Positions 35,713 to 42,942 of a stretch of DNA of 43,051 bases are shown here, piece by piece (the first letter of the stretch is position 1; every line of letters begins with the position of its first letter). The notes below the pieces were generated by a model. The model did not search any database. It had not been told where the DNA came from and saw only the letters and a list, made by a program, of their open reading frames with translations. The stretch comes from Sphaerochaetaceae bacterium (lineage in GTDB: Bacteria; Spirochaetota; Spirochaetia; Sphaerochaetales; Sphaerochaetaceae). The stretch lies in contig JAQVOO010000002.1 of assembly GCA_028702575.1 (NCBI GenBank), positions 1-43,051 of the forward strand, read 5' to 3'. Both the position numbers and the translations under genes were made by a program.

Positions 35713-36546
35713 ATGGTTGTGTGGCGACGACAAAATGTTCCCAAAATATTTTTTCTCATTATCTGTGGCTTGCTTGTGGTGATTTTTAGTTGTGTAAAAG
35801 AACCTGTATCAACGGAAGTTCCTCAGAATGAGACCGTGAAAATATCGAATTCTACCACCGTGGCTGAAGTGCCCGAAAGTGACAATGTGTCCGAAGTAGC
35901 GCCTGAGCCGGCAGGAATTGAAGCTCTAGCACCACCGTTAACGTTAGAAGAACGATTCAGTTACACGTATGGCTATTTGCTCATGGAAACAGCGATGCGT
36001 GATGTCCAAGGGATAAATCCAAATTATTTTGCACGGGGAGCGTTTGACTCGGGGTTAGGTGCTTCTCCTCTGATCGATAAATCTTCTATGAATACAGTTC
36101 TCTATGAATATCAGGATAAACTAATTACAGAAGCTGCAAAAAGATTAGAAGAATTAGCGCGTAAGAATCTTGAAGATGCAGAGAGTTTTTTAGCTGTAAA
36201 TGGGCAGCGGGAAGGGGTAATTACGACCCCGAGCGGTTTGCAATATGAGATATTGAATATTCCAGAGGGGGAAAGTCCTAAGGAGTCTGATACTGTCCGT
36301 GTTAATTATCGTTTAACCTATCTTGATGGTCGTGAAGGTGATGCTTCGATCCGGGGAATTCCGAGTACGTTCAATCTCCCTTCGTTGATTCCGGGGTTTC
36401 GTGAAGGTCTCTTGTTAATGAGCGAAGGTTCTAAGTTTAGATTTTACGTGCACCCTGATCTCGGCTATGGAGCTACGGGCTCAACACGGATAGAACCCAA
36501 TACTTTGCTTATTTTTGATGTTGAATTAGTGGAAATCGTAGACTAG
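35713..36546 (+). CDS. FKBP-type peptidyl-prolyl isomerase lipoprotein
   Basis: A 277-residue exported lipoprotein (signal peptide ending VIFSC, Cys27). A Pro/Glu-rich linker (about 30-75) is followed by an FKBP N-terminal dimerisation segment (about 80-165, helical) and an FKBP domain (about 175-277) with SDTVRVNYRLTYLDGREGD, IPGFREGLLLMSEGSKFRFYVHPDLGYG and NTLLIFDVELV. It would assist folding of exported proteins, like Mip/FkpA. GGATAAGGA precedes the ATG. Its stop shares the tetramer CTAG with the convergent HAD gene. Confidence 0.9.
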   Translation: MVVWRRQNVPKIFFLIICGLLVVIFSCVKEPVSTEVPQNETVKISNSTTVAEVPESDNVSEVAPEPAGIEALAPPLTLEERFSYTYGYLLMETAMRDVQGINPNYFARGAFDSGLGASPLIDKSSMNTVLYEYQDKLITEAAKRLEELARKNLEDAESFLAVNGQREGVITTPSGLQYEILNIPEGESPKESDTVRVNYRLTYLDGREGDASIRGIPSTFNLPSLIPGFREGLLLMSEGSKFRFYVHPDLGYGATGSTRIEPNTLLIFDVELVEIVD

Positions 36547-37235
36547 TGTTCTAGAATAGGAAGCAGCTCCTTAAGGCTTGTTATCTCATATGTTGGTATC
36601 GTTGATTCATCTCTTTCCATGCCAAAGCGATTTACCCAGCAAGTGTCGAGGCCAGCATTTATTCCTCCCCGGATATCACTGGTGAGGCTATCACCAATCA
36701 CTAGGGGGTTATCCGCTGTGGCGCCCGATGCACGTGCTAGTGCTACGGCCTTATGAAAATAGGCTGGATTGGGCTTTTGAACTCCAATTTCTTCACTAAT
36801 TACGATTGCTTTGAAGTAGTTGAGGGTTCCTGTGGCCACTAAACGGCCACGTTGAATTTCTGAAATACCATTAGTAATTAAAGAAATGGGATAATGTTGT
36901 TTAGAGAGTTCTTCCAAGACGGGGATGGCATCATTATAGAGTTGGAATGATTTGGCAAGTGTTTCAGCATAATGTTTAGCGGTGAGTTCTGGATCTATAG
37001 CAATACCATAGATGGTCTGAAATCGCCGAAAACGTTCAATTTTTAATGTTTCTAATGTAATAAGACCTTGTTCGAATTCCAACCAAGCCTCGTTGTTAAT
37101 TTGACTGTAAGTGTTTAATGCCCTTGTACTCGGTTTAACGTTTAAAAGAGTGAAAACTTGAGAAAGAGCCCATCTTTCCGCGGCAACAAAATCAAAAAGT
37201 GTCCCATCTGCATCAAAGAATAAATGATCGTACAT
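36543..37235 (-). CDS. HAD-family nucleotidase (YjjG-like)
   Basis: A 230-residue haloacid dehalogenase phosphatase. Motif I is FFDADGTLFD (Asp8 nucleophile, Asp10), motif II is in SLITNGISEIQRGRL, motif III is in QKPNPAYFHKAV, and motif IV is VIGDSLTSDIRGGINAG. The cap region and the ISEIQ/GVQKP pattern fit the YjjG/YfnB group, pyrimidine 5'-nucleotidases that clear non-canonical nucleotides. AAAGGA lies 6 nt before the ATG. Monocistronic and convergent with the FKBP gene. Confidence 0.85.
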   Translation of the reverse strand: MYDHLFFDADGTLFDFVAAERWALSQVFTLLNVKPSTRALNTYSQINNEAWLEFEQGLITLETLKIERFRRFQTIYGIAIDPELTAKHYAETLAKSFQLYNDAIPVLEELSKQHYPISLITNGISEIQRGRLVATGTLNYFKAIVISEEIGVQKPNPAYFHKAVALARASGATADNPLVIGDSLTSDIRGGINAGLDTCWVNRFGMERDESTIPTYEITSLKELLPILEH

Positions 37236-37331: not shown

Positions 37332-37916
37332 ATGAAGCTGAAAAAACAATGGATTTTACAATTTTTGATTGGGATAGTGTTGATAGTACTTGGTATTTTT
37401 ATCTTAATACGACCGGATATGTTTAAACAGGTGTTTGTCATTACCCTCGGTGTTGTGGCAATAATTACAGGGATAAGTTCTTTAGCAACGATGAACAAGT
37501 ACTCTTTTGGTCGTTTTAATCGAGGGTCCACCCTGGTTAAAGGTATCTTAGGGATTATTATTGGAGTACTTGCGGTGATATTACCACTGGCTATGGCTGA
37601 GGTGGCTTGGAAAGTTATTATCTATATACTTGCTGCTCAAATGGCAATTTCTGCGGTTGTTATGTTACTCGATGCCGTGGCCGTTCGTTCCGCAGGCTTT
37701 TCTCCTGTTTACTTAGTAGTGGAAGGTCTAGTTTCTTTAGTGTTAGCGATTGTTCTCTTTTTAGCACCTAGTAGTATCGCCGATATTTTAGTAACTGTGT
37801 TAGGAGTTACGGTAATTGTAGTAGGGTTAACATTTGGCTTGCTCGCATTAGCTAGCAAGAAAAAAAGTGGGGGTATCACGGTGGAGGCTACTGAGGTGCA
37901 CATAGATGAGACTTAA
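37332..37916 (+). CDS. DUF308 (HdeD-like) membrane protein
   Basis: A 194-residue protein with six hydrophobic segments in three pairs, ending in a charged, cytosolic tail. The repeats ILQFLIGIVLIVLGIFILIRP and LVKGILGIIIGVLAVILPL are typical of DUF308/HdeD proteins. HdeD of E. coli is linked to acid stress, but the function here is unknown. GGGAGG precedes the ATG. The his promoter begins 8 bp after its stop, so it may share no transcript with the his genes. Confidence 0.82.
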   Translation: MKLKKQWILQFLIGIVLIVLGIFILIRPDMFKQVFVITLGVVAIITGISSLATMNKYSFGRFNRGSTLVKGILGIIIGVLAVILPLAMAEVAWKVIIYILAAQMAISAVVMLLDAVAVRSAGFSPVYLVVEGLVSLVLAIVLFLAPSSIADILVTVLGVTVIVVGLTFGLLALASKKKSGGITVEATEVHIDET

Positions 37917-37924
37917 TGATGCTA

Positions 37925-37953
37925 TTGACACAAGGCGTGACGTTCGTTAGTGT
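37925..37953 (+). promoter_or_regulatory. his operon promoter
   Basis: Consensus TTGACA (37925-37930), 17-bp spacer and TAGTGT (37948-37953), a weak -10. Transcription should begin at about 37960, next to the hisL ATG at 37961, making the leader ORF leaderless. No better promoter is visible between the DUF308 stop and hisL. Confidence 0.5.
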
Positions 37954-37960
37954 CATGAGC

Positions 37961-38011
37961 ATGAATAGTTTATTTGCACACCATCATCATCACCACATTT
38001 TGACTCTTTGA
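37961..38011 (+). CDS. hisL: his operon leader peptide with six consecutive His codons
   Basis: A 16-codon ORF, MNSLFAHHHHHHILTL, ends in TGA 48 bp before the attenuator stem completes. The six His codons (37979-37996, mixed CAC/CAT) are the hallmark of his leader peptides (E. coli HisL has seven). No Shine-Dalgarno sequence precedes the ATG and the predicted transcript start is at or next to it. An in-frame ATG two codons earlier (37955) is possible if transcription begins further upstream. The stalling ribosome senses histidyl-tRNA charge. Too short for ordinary gene calling. Confidence 0.9.
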   Translation: MNSLFAHHHHHHILTL

Positions 38012-38063
38012 TGGAATGCGTGTGCGTTGATTGAGTAGTATCGACTCCGCATTTCGCGGGGTC
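37976..38063 (+). promoter_or_regulatory. his attenuator: competing RNA hairpins
   Basis: Three pairings compete. Protector: GCACACCAU (37976-37984, Ala and first two His codons) with 38016-38025, 9 bp with C38019 bulged. Antiterminator: 38012-38020 (UGGAAUGCG) with 38048-38056 (CGCAUUUCG), 9 bp with two wobbles. Terminator: 38043-38050 with 38056-38063. A ribosome stalled at His codons covers the protector arm, freeing the antiterminator and allowing readthrough; a ribosome reaching the stop covers 38013-38020, and without translation the protector forms, so termination results in both cases. This is the classical attenuation logic. Confidence 0.85.
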
Positions 38064-38067
38064 TTTT
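38043..38067 (+). terminator. his operon attenuator (intrinsic terminator)
   Basis: GACTCCGC and GCGGGGTC form an 8-bp, GC-rich stem with one T-G wobble and an ATTTC loop, followed at once by TTTTCT. It lies between hisL and hisG with no other function in the gap. Confidence 0.88.
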
Positions 38068-38086: not shown

Positions 38087-38947
38087 ATGACAACTCGGTT
38101 AAGGATTGCGGTCCAAAAAAGTGGTCGATTGAGTGAACGCTCATTACAAATTATACGTGATTGTGGGATCAGGTTCGGGTCTGATTCAAGATTACTTAAA
38201 GAAGAAGCTGAAAATTTTCCATTGGAATTCCTTTATCTGCGAGATGATGATATTCCCCGGTACGTTAATGATGGGGTTGCCGATATCGGCATTGTTGGGC
38301 GCAATGAATATGATGAACAGGATCTTCCCTTAGAGATTATTCGTGATTTGGGATTTTCGAAATGCCGCCTTTCTGTTGCCGTTCCGATAGATTTTGTCTA
38401 TACCGGATTGGCATCGCTCGCTGGTAAGCGGATTGCCACCAGTTATCCCAACATATTGCGCAAAAAATTAGCAGAAGCCCAAATCGAAGCACGGATTTAT
38501 GAGATATCGGGGTCGGTTGAGATTACCCCTTCGATTGGTGTTGCCGATGCTATTTGTGATTTGGTTAGTACTGGAGCCACTTTGGCTAGTAATGGGTTAC
38601 GCGAGGTTGAAGCTATTTATCATTCCACAGCAGTGATGATTGGGCATCAAGGACTTTCACAAGAGAAAAGGCTTATCCTTGAACGCCTCTTATTACGGAT
38701 AGATGCTGTGTTACGGGCAGATGATTTTAAATACATTATGTTTAATGTGCCCAAAAAACACTTGGATAAAGTTGCTGCAATTATAGGTGGTATAACAAGC
38801 CCGACGGTTACTCCTTTGTTGGATGCGACTTGGGTTGCTGTGCAGACTGTAGTGCGTGAAGCACAATTTTGGGATGTTTTAGAACAGCTCAAAACTCTCG
38901 GAGCTCAAGGGATACTTGTGACTGCCATTGAAAAGATGGCTGATTAG
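38087..38947 (+). CDS. hisG: ATP phosphoribosyltransferase, long form
   Basis: A 286-residue enzyme catalysing the first step of histidine synthesis (ATP + PRPP). It starts LRIAVQKSGRLSERS and has VADIGIVGRNEYDE and the PRPP loop region GVADAICDLVSTGATL. Residues about 210-286 (FNVPKKHLDKVAAIIGG...) are the C-terminal regulatory domain, so it is the long HisG that is feedback-inhibited by histidine and needs no HisZ. First structural gene after the attenuator; 12 bp to hisD. Confidence 0.96.
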   Translation: MTTRLRIAVQKSGRLSERSLQIIRDCGIRFGSDSRLLKEEAENFPLEFLYLRDDDIPRYVNDGVADIGIVGRNEYDEQDLPLEIIRDLGFSKCRLSVAVPIDFVYTGLASLAGKRIATSYPNILRKKLAEAQIEARIYEISGSVEITPSIGVADAICDLVSTGATLASNGLREVEAIYHSTAVMIGHQGLSQEKRLILERLLLRIDAVLRADDFKYIMFNVPKKHLDKVAAIIGGITSPTVTPLLDATWVAVQTVVREAQFWDVLEQLKTLGAQGILVTAIEKMAD

Positions 38948-38959
38948 AAGGATACACTT

Positions 38960-40288
38960 ATGGGGCGAATCAAGCGAATTATAAATCCAGAGCTCAATGC
39001 CATCTCCTCTCTTTTGGCGCGACCTTCAAGTGATAGTAAGTCAGTAGAGACTGCTGTTAGTGCTATTATTGCACGCGTGATAAGTGAAGGCGATGCTGCA
39101 TTGCTTGCATATACACAAAAATTCGACCATGTTTCTCTTGCTTCCCTTATCGTGTCCTCTGAAGTAATTGCCGAGGCACAAAAGGGGCTTGCAGCAACGC
39201 TCCGTGCTGCGATTGATCATGCGAAACAAAATATTTATAAGTTCCACTGGTCTCAAAAGCCGCGGGATGAGCAGGTCGAGACTCAACCTGGGGTCTATTG
39301 TTGGCGTAAGAGTATTCCCATTGAGAAGGTGGGGATCTATGTTCCTGGAGGGAGTGCTCCTTTGTTTTCTACCGTGCTTATGCTAGCTGTTCCGGCTCAA
39401 ATTGCTGGATGTAAAGAGATAATTTTAACGACACCACCACGCCACGATGGAAGCGTTGATCCTGCTATTTTATACGCAGCTTCTATAAGTGGTGTGACTA
39501 AAGTTATTACCGTAGGAGGTGCTCAAGCTATTGCAGCACTTGCCTATGGTACAGAGTCGATACCAGCTGTTGATAAGATTTTTGGCCCAGGTAATCGATT
39601 TGTTACTGAAGCTAAACAACAGGTAGCTACCCATCAATGTGCAATTGATCTCCCAGCTGGTCCTTCCGAAGTTATGGTCGTTATTGATGCTACTAGCAAT
39701 GCTGCCTTTGCCGCGGCAGACTTGCTTAGTCAGGCTGAACATGGTCCTGACAGTCAAGTTGTGTTGGTAGTTGAGGCTAGCGACGAAGCAACAGGTCATG
39801 CCATTGTCGATGCGGTTGAATCCCATATTGCGATGCAAATAACCCACTTATCGCGGCATGAAATAATTAGGGCATCTTTAGAGCACAGTAAGGCCGTTAT
39901 TATAACGCAAAAAGAGTTGACCGCTGCTGTCATAAATAGTTATGCGCCTGAACATCTTATTATTAACACGGCTAATTTAGTTGAGCTGGCAACCAAGATA
40001 CAACATGCTGGTTCTGTTTTTCTAGGACAATGGTCGTGCGAATCGGTGGGTGATTATGCTTCAGGAACTAATCACACGTTGCCAACTGCAGGTTGGGCGC
40101 GCTCTTATAGTGGTGTTTCTTTGGATAGTTTTTATAAGAAAATTACCTTTCAACGTATTACATGCCAGGGGTTAAAAGCAATTGGGCCAATAGTAGAAGT
40201 TTTAGCTTCTGGTGAATCGCTAGAGGCCCACTCGGAGGCGGTAAGTGTCCGTTTGAAATCCTTGAGGAGGAGTGATGAGTGCCTTTAG
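38960..40288 (+). CDS. hisD: Histidinol dehydrogenase
   Basis: A 442-residue zinc enzyme that oxidises histidinol to histidine in two NAD-dependent steps. Family segments include KVGIYVPGGSAPLFSTVLM, GGAQAIAALAYGTESIP, DKIFGPGNRFVTEAK, DLPAGPSEVMV, DLLSQAEHGPDSQ and GDYASGTNHTLPTAGWA. The length is typical. AAGGATAC precedes the ATG. It overlaps hisC by 14 bp. Confidence 0.97.
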   Translation: MGRIKRIINPELNAISSLLARPSSDSKSVETAVSAIIARVISEGDAALLAYTQKFDHVSLASLIVSSEVIAEAQKGLAATLRAAIDHAKQNIYKFHWSQKPRDEQVETQPGVYCWRKSIPIEKVGIYVPGGSAPLFSTVLMLAVPAQIAGCKEIILTTPPRHDGSVDPAILYAASISGVTKVITVGGAQAIAALAYGTESIPAVDKIFGPGNRFVTEAKQQVATHQCAIDLPAGPSEVMVVIDATSNAAFAAADLLSQAEHGPDSQVVLVVEASDEATGHAIVDAVESHIAMQITHLSRHEIIRASLEHSKAVIITQKELTAAVINSYAPEHLIINTANLVELATKIQHAGSVFLGQWSCESVGDYASGTNHTLPTAGWARSYSGVSLDSFYKKITFQRITCQGLKAIGPIVEVLASGESLEAHSEAVSVRLKSLRRSDECL

Positions 40289-41357
40289 TATTACGCAATT
40301 GATGCGTCCCAATATTGTATCATTAAAACCTTATTCATCTGCTCGTAATGAGTTTACTGGTGATGCGGAAGTTTTTCTCGATGCTAATGAAAATTGGCGT
40401 GATTTTGTGAGGGATTCTGGATTAAATCGTTACCCTGATCCAGCTCAAAAGTCATTAAAACAGAAGATTGCCAAGGTTATGGGGTTACCCGAAGCTAATT
40501 TAGTAATTGGTAACGGCAGTGATGAGATGATTGATCTAATGTTTAGGATTTTCTGTGTTCCCCACAAGGACAAGGTTTTAATAATTGAACCAACCTATGG
40601 GGCCTATTCTGTATTTGCCGCTATTAACGACACAGGAGTTTCTAGTTGTCGTTTAAAGGAGAATTTTGCATTAGATCTACCAAGAATGGAAGCCATCTGC
40701 CATTTGGTGAATAATGGAACACCCCAAACGGGGATGCATAAGATGTTATTTATCTGTTCTCCTAATAATCCATCTGGCAATAGTTATCCGTTAAAAGATA
40801 TTGCCATGATAGCCCAACGTTTTTCGGGTATAACCATCGTTGATGAAGCTTATTATGAATTCTCCGATAAACCCTCAGCTGTTTCATTGATGGAGAGTTG
40901 TCCCCGCCTAGTTGTTCTGCGCACGTTTTCCAAGAGTTGGGGACTTGCTAATGTCCGTGTTGGGATTGCTATTGCCCCTTTAGAAATAGTAGAGACGATG
41001 CATAAGGTTAAATATCCCTATAACTTGAGTGGCGTCGCTCAAGAATTAGCAGAAGAGGTGCTCAACCATGCTGATGAAGTAGCACAGAATATTGAAACGA
41101 TAAAAGCGGAACGGGCACGAGTTGCACAACAATTGCGATCTTTACCTTTTGTTGAGCAGGTTTTTCCTAGTGATGCTAATTTTTTGTTAGTCCGGGTTCT
41201 TGATCCCGATAATGTATGCCTTTATTTACGTGAAAGGGGCATTATTATCCGCAATCGTTCAACTTTACGGGGTTGTTTTGGATGTGTCCGTATCACAATC
41301 GGTAGTAGAAGAGAAAACGATATATTATTGAAAGTATTAAAGCAGATGGAGGTGTGA
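40275..41357 (+). CDS. hisC: Histidinol-phosphate aminotransferase
   Basis: A 360-residue fold-type I PLP enzyme making histidinol phosphate from imidazole acetol phosphate and glutamate. The PLP lysine is Lys220 in RTFSKSWGLANVRVG; other motifs are DANENW, RYPDPAQ, GNGSDEMIDL, SPNNPSGN and DEAYYEF. ATG 40275 is preferred over GTG 40272 because of its distance from GAGGAGG. It sits 14 bp inside hisD. Confidence 0.95.
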   Translation: MSAFSITQLMRPNIVSLKPYSSARNEFTGDAEVFLDANENWRDFVRDSGLNRYPDPAQKSLKQKIAKVMGLPEANLVIGNGSDEMIDLMFRIFCVPHKDKVLIIEPTYGAYSVFAAINDTGVSSCRLKENFALDLPRMEAICHLVNNGTPQTGMHKMLFICSPNNPSGNSYPLKDIAMIAQRFSGITIVDEAYYEFSDKPSAVSLMESCPRLVVLRTFSKSWGLANVRVGIAIAPLEIVETMHKVKYPYNLSGVAQELAEEVLNHADEVAQNIETIKAERARVAQQLRSLPFVEQVFPSDANFLLVRVLDPDNVCLYLRERGIIIRNRSTLRGCFGCVRITIGSRRENDILLKVLKQMEV

Positions 41358-41359
41358 TT

Positions 41360-42349
41360 ATGACGAGGCGTCTAGCGACCATCTTTCTTGCCCTTGAAGG
41401 GCCCGTTATCGCTACCACTTCTTTGCGTTCGTTCGCTGATCTGGTGTGGACTTCAGAAGTTTTTAGTAGTTTGTATACTATTATGTTATCGGGGCGTTAC
41501 CGCTTGGTCGTTTTCTTACAGGAAGAACATGATCAAGAGGTTTTACAGCGAGTCTTCAATACCCTCTCGAGTCAGGGCATTGCAGTAGAACAGGTTCTTA
41601 CTAATAAAGAACTCCCAGATTTTGATATCGCTTTGTATGACAATAATCATTCATTGGTAATTGCTTCTAATCCAGAACATTTGGCTAAAAAGTGGGGATT
41701 TAAAGGGCAAGTCTTCAGTGATTGGAAGCATCTTGAATCGATGCTACTTGGTGAAAAAGTGCTTCCACCTCGAAGGGCAAGGATTGTTCGTCAGACCAAG
41801 GAAACCGCTATTCGATTAGATTTGCAGCTTGATGGCACAGGTCAAGCCGACATTGAAACTGGCCTTCCATTTTTTGATCATATGCTCCACCAAGTCGCCC
41901 GCCATGGGCGTATCGATATGACGCTCCGTTGCCATGGAGATCTAGAGGTGGATGAACACCATTCTGTGGAAGACGTGGCCATTGTTCTCGGACAGGCTGT
42001 AGCACAAGCTTTAGGAGATAAACGAGGCATTAGCCGCTATGGATTTGAAATTGTTCCTATGGATGAATGCCTTGCTCAAGTTGCTCTTGATTTTTCTGGT
42101 CGACCTTGGTTTGTCTGGAAAACTGCTTTTACCCGACCTCTGATAGGAACTTTTCCTACTGAATTGCTGGAGCACTTTTTTAAATCATTCAGTGATGAGT
42201 CGAAAAGTACTCTTCACATGGAGGTTAATGCCGGTAATGCTCATCATCAGGCTGAAGCACTATTTAAAGCTTTTGGGCGGGCCTTGCGGACAGCGGTTTT
42301 TAGGTATCCCGATAATACTGATTTGCCGTCAACGAAGGGAGTCTTATAA
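41360..42349 (+). CDS. hisB: Imidazoleglycerol-phosphate dehydratase with degenerate N-terminal HAD domain
   Basis: A 329-residue protein laid out like the bifunctional E. coli HisB. Residues about 138-329 are an intact dehydratase domain (RIVRQTKETAIRLDL, FFDHMLHQVARHG, DEHHSVEDVAIVLGQA, GNAHHQAEALFKAFGRAL, STKGVL). Residues 1-135 align with the histidinol-phosphatase half but the catalytic FxDxDGT appears as FLALEGP (Ala11, Glu13, Pro15), the motif IV GDxxxD appears as ASNPEH, and the zinc-binding Cys/His loop is absent. So the dehydratase should work and the phosphatase should not. GGAGG lies 7 nt before ATG 41360. Confidence 0.93.
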   Translation: MTRRLATIFLALEGPVIATTSLRSFADLVWTSEVFSSLYTIMLSGRYRLVVFLQEEHDQEVLQRVFNTLSSQGIAVEQVLTNKELPDFDIALYDNNHSLVIASNPEHLAKKWGFKGQVFSDWKHLESMLLGEKVLPPRRARIVRQTKETAIRLDLQLDGTGQADIETGLPFFDHMLHQVARHGRIDMTLRCHGDLEVDEHHSVEDVAIVLGQAVAQALGDKRGISRYGFEIVPMDECLAQVALDFSGRPWFVWKTAFTRPLIGTFPTELLEHFFKSFSDESKSTLHMEVNAGNAHHQAEALFKAFGRALRTAVFRYPDNTDLPSTKGVL

Positions 42350-42942
42350 TGGCCTCGGTAGCTGTGGTGAAATACAATGCGGGGAATATTCGTTCTGTCT
42401 TGTGTGCGTTAGCCCGTCTAGGTGTTGATGCTGAAGTCACAGATGATCCACAACTCCTTAAAAAAGCTTCACATGTAATTTTTCCAGGTGTTGGTGAAGC
42501 TTCTTCCGCTATGCGTTATTTACACCAGAAACATCTCGATGAAGTGTTAGTCTCTTTAAAGCAACCTTTTTTAGGTATTTGTCTGGGCATGCAGCTTATG
42601 TGTAGTCTTAGTGAAGAGTCTCATACAGAGTGTTTGGGAATCTATCCTACTCCAGTGATCCGTTTTCAGCCCTCTTTGAAAGCTAAAATACCGCACATGG
42701 GCTGGAATAGTGTTACTGTTTATGATAATTCTTTATTTAACAAGATACCTGATCCAAGTTGGTTCTATTTTGTCCACTCCTATTATGTTCCTCTTTCCAA
42801 GCAAACAGAGGCTTGTTGTACCCATGGTAGAACTCAGTTCAGTGCAGCTTTGAATTTAGGCAATTTTTGGGGTGTCCAATTTCATCCTGAAAAGAGCGGA
42901 CCCAGCGGCGCTCAACTTCTTACCAATTTTCTACAATTTTAG
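42349..42942 (+). CDS. hisH: Imidazole glycerol phosphate synthase, glutaminase subunit
   Basis: A 197-residue class I glutamine amidotransferase that passes ammonia to HisF. The nucleophile is Cys78 in [10 protein letters not shown]; the His179 and Glu181 of the triad are in [10 protein letters not shown]. The N-terminal [10 protein letters not shown] and MGWNS motifs are typical. The start shares one base with the hisB stop (TAATG), with GGGAG 7 nt upstream. Confidence 0.96.

Follow-up and report, generated by a model that had tools for sequence, protein, structure and literature searches.

The leader region of hisG in a spirochaete his operon is very probably, as a whole, a ribosome-mediated transcription attenuator that works from a leaderless message. 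The region was studied in a stretch of 43,051 nt from a Sphaerochaetaceae bacterium, the whole of which is called the window here. The genome that carries it is 2.29 Mb in size, and its nearest named relatives were Spirochaetota genomes from metagenomes, such as HGW-Spirochaetae-4. Upstream of the element, on the same strand, is a DUF308 gene that ends at 37916. All features described below are on the forward strand unless noted.

A leader peptide ORF of 16 codons (MNSLFAHHHHHHILTL*) was found at 37961–38011. It carried six consecutive His codons (CAC CAT CAT CAT CAC CAC) at 37979–37996, as the preliminary description had reported. No run of six His codons appeared in any of 5000 dinucleotide shuffles of the region. 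A second in-frame ATG was present at 37955, 1 nt past the –10 hexamer; the relatives aligned to the ATG at 37961, which was also the start chosen earlier. The ORF was preceded by a sigma-70-type promoter (37925–37953), composed of TTGACA (37925–37930), a 17-nt spacer and TAGTGT (37948–37953). This promoter scored below the threshold of a generic consensus scan because its –10 element keeps only TAnnnT. Nearly every leader of the hisG clade had the pattern TTGAC-N15–19-TAnnnT in the corresponding position.

The GC-rich terminator with a TTTT tract that had been described ahead of hisG was found at 38043–38067. It consisted of a hairpin, GACTCCGC-ATTTC-GCGGGGTC (38043–38063; –13.1 kcal/mol), followed by TTTT (38064–38067). 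The two further pairings proposed in the preliminary description, 37976–37984 with 38016–38025 and 38012–38020 with 38048–38056, were also correct. In the fold, the first of them formed an anti-antiterminator or pause hairpin, designated P1. Its strand 1 (37975–37992) overlapped the His codons, and strand 2, the 3' arm (38009–38026), overlapped the stop codon as well as the antiterminator strand at 38013–38020. The P1 core was formed by GCACACCAT (37976–37984) and ATGCGTGTGC (38016–38025). The second pairing was the antiterminator, in which GGAATGCG (38013–38020) paired with CGCATTTC (38048–38055), the latter being the end of the terminator 5' arm together with the loop. P1 and the antiterminator thus had strand 2 in common. 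The total fold energy of the leader region in the window was not unusual (z = –0.55), and therefore the evidence for the element comes from conservation and coevolution, not from stability.

In the mechanism that we propose, RNA polymerase would start approximately at the A of the leader AUG, and a ribosome would initiate on the leaderless message and trail the polymerase. With charged His-tRNA available, the ribosome would reach the UGA at 38009–38011 and cover GGAAUGCG; the terminator at 38043–38063 would then form and transcription would stop at the U-run. When charged His-tRNA is short, the ribosome would stall on the His codons and cover strand 1 of P1. The freed GGAAUGCG (38013–38020) would then pair with CGCAUUUC (38048–38055), block the terminator and allow hisGDCBH and the genes beyond to be transcribed. 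In the absence of leader translation, P1 would form, GGAAUGCG would be occupied, and transcription would terminate. Of these steps, we infer where transcription starts, that the leader is translated, and that stalling and termination take place in the cell.

The preliminary description had held that this logic works in all three states. Equilibrium folding of the window bore this out, with a terminator probability of 1.0 in the untranslated leader, about 0.57 with the ribosome stalled at the His codons, and 1.0 with the ribosome at the stop codon. The switch was of modest sharpness in the co-transcriptional model, in which the terminator 5' arm was sequestered at 0.57, 0.86 and 0.72 in the same three states. 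The element had the features of an attenuator: a short ORF whose codons include a run for the end product of the operon, an intrinsic terminator between the leader and the first gene, and, in the computations, mutually exclusive antiterminator and anti-antiterminator structures that depend on the ribosome position.

The regions upstream of hisG were collected from relatives of the same family and class. The 111 sequences retrieved comprised 107 distinct regions of the same hisG clade. A His-rich leader, defined as an ORF that begins with ATG and has three or more His within seven codons, was found in 103 of these 107, and the same definition picked up 25 of 1110 dinucleotide-shuffled upstream regions (approximately 2%). 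A hairpin and a T-run followed the leader in all 103. Among the four exceptions, L073 reads as a two-His leader with the terminator kept, and one was a distant hisG copy (48% identical) without a leader. The other two (L203 in genome G070 and L204 in G082), both of genus g16, had lost promoter, leader and terminator altogether, and hisG in these genomes lies approximately 50–65 nt directly behind the DUF308 gene. These two are natural losses of the attenuator. No His leader was found in 37 more distant hisG regions of the class and phylum. Retention of hisG in relatives with loss of the His run or of the compensating base pairs had been named beforehand as the outcome that would speak against an attenuator; what was found instead was the His run in 103 of 107 regions and co-variation of the pairings.

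A promoter-leader pattern was also used to search the family for other His-controlled genes. Nearly all matches were hisG leaders, with three exceptions (G120, G122 and G135). The G120 match was rejected, being the start of an ordinary gene.

Across genera, the primary sequence of the leader was conserved only in the His run, the start, the terminator and the complementarity. The strands of P1 differed completely between genera with the pairing kept: GCACAC/GTGTGC in the window, CGCG/CGCG in L002, and TTAAAGGC/GCTTTTAA in L006. Column-wise covariation counts were dropped, since the MAFFT alignment of nine close leaders misaligned the 5' strand of P1; for this reason shuffling and swapping were relied on. 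Transcripts of 92 distinct leaders were folded as far as the loop of the terminator, and their 5' ends were trimmed to mimic the ribosome.

The mean predicted sequestration of the terminator 5' arm in these leaders was 0.24 in the untranslated state, 0.63 when the ribosome sat on the His codons, and 0.37 when it sat at the stop codon. The difference between the stalled and the untranslated state was 0.395 for the real sequences. It fell to 0.015 when the spacer between the stop codon and the terminator was shuffled, and was 0.257 when the terminator arm was taken from another leader. The expected number of pairs between ORF and spacer was 14.2 with the leader's own ORF versus 10.0 with an ORF swapped in from another genus, and the swap raised sequestration in the untranslated state from 0.24 to 0.43. 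The leaders are related by descent, so that p-values overstate their independence, and counts by genus are the safer figure. By this count, the gain in ORF-spacer pairing of own over swapped ORFs was positive in 18 of 19 genera, as was the switch amplitude over shuffled spacers. At equilibrium, the terminator still won in most leaders with the ribosome stalled, and its probability fell below 0.5 in only about one-third. The switch must therefore be partly kinetic, and the co-transcriptional model was used in addition for this reason. Conservation, coevolving alternative pairings, the terminator and the promoter-to-AUG spacing described next are the parts of the attenuator that these computations show.

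The distance from the –10 hexamer to the leader ATG was exactly 6 nt in 78 of 103 leaders, and 6–10 nt in 92, including the window (7 nt). The 6-nt gap occurred in many genera, with freely varying bases and no Shine-Dalgarno (SD) sequence. SD complementarity was weak before the leader ATGs (mean run 2.9) versus strong before hisG (5.8), and some of the 5-base SD-like runs before leader ATGs were part of the –10 sequence TAAGGT. From the usual distance between a sigma-70 –10 element and its start site, which is well established, and the spacing observed, the start site was placed at the leader AUG.

Leaderless genes, defined by a –10 element TAnnnT approximately 12 bp before the start codon and by the lack of an SD sequence, are among the published predictions for some Spirochaetes (PMC3160421). 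The window agrees with this definition, with the first T of its hexamer 13 nt before the ATG at 37961 and no SD sequence. The leader of the his attenuator is thus apparently leaderless throughout the family, a feature absent from the preliminary description. It is not universally so, since nine leaders, eight in genus g11 and L157, had a 5' UTR of 19–35 nt, several of them with AGGAG-like sites.

Sampling of the window's genome by the promoter-ATG pattern only (TTGACA-N16–18-TAnnnT-N6-ATG) gave seven sites versus one in a reversed-pattern control. Five of the seven sites (C21, C132, C141, C240 and C249; L158 and L160–L163) opened long reading frames, including ones that resemble a ZIP-type transporter and ribonuclease HII, which suggests that leaderless starts are a general feature of the genome.

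One of the closest known systems is the enterobacterial his attenuator (hisL; RF00514). It and the window are alike in the His-run peptide, the three-strand logic (1:2 and 3:4 against 2:3), the terminator before hisG and the operon order hisGDCBHAFI. The window differs in its predicted lack of an SD sequence and of a 5' UTR, and in having 75 nt between the stop codon and hisG versus 145 nt in Escherichia coli. In a 211-nt scan, the RF00514 His_leader model gave the window 19.1 bits (E 0.39), below the gathering threshold of 49, whereas the leaders of E. coli (131.6) and Pasteurella (74.3) matched. Fifteen other spirochaete leaders gave no match up to E 5, and neither did L215 and L216 (Bacteroidales) or L218 (Deinococcus) match the model. 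The window attenuator would be classical in its working and lies outside RF00514 by that family's own threshold.

Other comparable systems are known or were found here. His attenuators in Firmicutes have been published as predictions by comparative genomics, with three to five His codons and a predicted terminator and antiterminator; these are in another phylum and operon context, and the parts of that report available to us do not mention a leaderless start (PMC9413887). The leaders in Bacteroidales (L215–L217) and Deinococcus (L218), which have the closest non-spirochaete HisG tested, resembled the window in the His run and a terminator-like hairpin before hisG. The Bacteroidales leaders, unlike the window, had an apparent short A-rich 5' UTR, and the Deinococcus leader had its ATG approximately 10 nt from a –10-like hexamer. 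Attenuators whose transcripts begin at the leader AUG are represented by Sinorhizobium meliloti trpL (PMC7298713) and Corynebacterium diphtheriae ilvB (PMC5784534). They respond to Trp or branched-chain amino acids in other phyla, and their start sites were measured, whereas those here are predicted. The reading of a his attenuator outside the enteric bacteria was supported by the conservation and the co-varying pairings, but is not in itself new, given the cases in Firmicutes, Bacteroidales and Deinococcus.

The operon downstream contained hisG (38087–38947; long-form ATP phosphoribosyltransferase with the C-terminal regulatory domain; TIGR00070, TIGR03455, PF01634 and PF08029; 183 bits versus a cut-off of 75.75 for TIGR00070), hisD (38960–40288; TIGR00069), hisC (40272–41357; TIGR01141), hisB in the bifunctional layout (41354–42349; NF002111 and NF003937) and hisH (42349–42942; TIGR01855). 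The contig ends shortly after hisH, and the operons of relatives go on with hisA, hisF and hisIE. By motif comparison, the N-terminal HAD half of HisB (41354–41770) looked catalytically degenerate. Its DxDGT motif was lost (FLALEGPVIA; FVEPEGPLI in a close relative), and HisB of other genera keeps FLDRDGI or FIDRDGV. A HisJ-like PHP phosphatase scored above its cut-off elsewhere in the genome (contig C126), and may have taken over from the degenerate half. A gene assigned only to the HAD hydrolase family, with no particular substrate, lies near the operon on the reverse strand (36543–37235), and might conceivably stand in for the degenerate half of HisB.

Could the element be something else? 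The DUF308 gene is on the same strand, and with the fold energy as unremarkable as it is, the hairpin might be merely the terminator of that gene and the His ORF a chance occurrence or a relic. This is extremely improbable, since a promoter separates the hairpin from the DUF308 gene, the His run recurs in nearly all relatives, and the pairings coevolve. Moreover, promoter, leader and terminator were lost together in the two genomes where hisG directly follows DUF308, as expected of one module. Only slightly more credible is sensing without translation, in which the leader RNA would be bound by a ligand, a tRNA (T-box) or a protein and the His codons would be incidental. For his genes of other bacteria, control by T-boxes or by the repressor HisR has been described (PMC9413887). 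The scan of the entire window gave no Rfam match at the gathering threshold, histidine T-box included, and thus no known riboswitch or T-box, and the poor conservation of the leader outside the elements named above is unlike a ligand-binding aptamer. A real attenuator that is SD-led, or transcribed from a second promoter further upstream, is unlikely but deserves more weight than these. The nine relatives with a longer 5' UTR, in several of which it carries purine runs resembling an SD sequence, point that way, and the start sites of the leaders are predictions only. Against it stand the exact, SD-free 6-nt spacing in 78 leaders, the excess of promoter-N6-ATG sites in the genome, five of which open long frames, and the leaderless genes predicted in some Spirochaetes (PMC3160421). 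We therefore prefer the attenuator with a leaderless start.

Regarding its history, HisG of the window was 50–51% identical to that of Bacteroidales, approximately 47% to Deinococcus and 47% to E. coli, versus 27–37% to the remaining HisG sequences of Spirochaetota that the tree contained. In the maximum-likelihood tree it was placed with Bacteroidales, gammaproteobacteria and Deinococcus (support 100/100), apart from the other Spirochaetota copies. The order hisG-D-C-B-H-A-F-IE and the two-domain HisB are as in E. coli. His leaders were present at all eight non-spirochaete hisG of the E. coli type examined (four from gammaproteobacteria, three from Bacteroidales and one from Deinococcus). The HisG type, the enteric-type operon and the leaders of the Bacteroidales and Deinococcus relatives together indicate that the operon was likely acquired horizontally, and the attenuator probably came aboard with it, judging from these eight outgroup sequences. 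The host is indeed a spirochaete, which the preliminary description had considered unexpected; the surprise is partly explained by an operon that is E. coli- or Bacteroidales-like and probably acquired by transfer. An independent origin in spirochaetes after acquisition of the operon, with the same working and a different history, is a possibility we take seriously but would not favor. It would fit the low His_leader score of the window beside those of E. coli and Pasteurella and the different initiation mode of the spirochaete leaders. The presence of leaders at all eight outgroup genes, and a GGTGGGC motif after the stop codon common to Bacteroidales and some spirochaete leaders, argue for descent with the operon. 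Tentatively, and at somewhat less than even confidence, His attenuation may be an ancient module, carried along by the E. coli-type hisGDCBHAF(IE) operon through four phyla or more (Pseudomonadota, Bacteroidota, Deinococcota and Spirochaetota). Its sequence would have drifted beyond recognition with the pairing logic kept, and its translation start would have been rebuilt in each host (SD-led, in an SD-less UTR, or leaderless).

The mechanism itself is known; the novelty lies in the phylum, in a leaderless start shared across the family, in the sequence family, and in an operon and a switch that apparently travel together. Our literature search found no report of a his attenuator in Spirochaetota, although Lopatovskaya et al. 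2010, which we saw only as cited in PMC4833913, may list some. The element extends ribosome-mediated his attenuation to Spirochaetota, with approximately 100 checkable leaders that the standard RNA model misses. The results also suggest that a whole family may, as a rule, have attenuators that operate on leaderless messages. In such an attenuator the first ribosome must load in time with the polymerase and without help from an SD sequence. The leaderless leaders, the longer 5' UTRs within one genus and the two losses form a natural series for studying the inheritance of a regulatory RNA, and its rebuilding, once an operon has been transferred.
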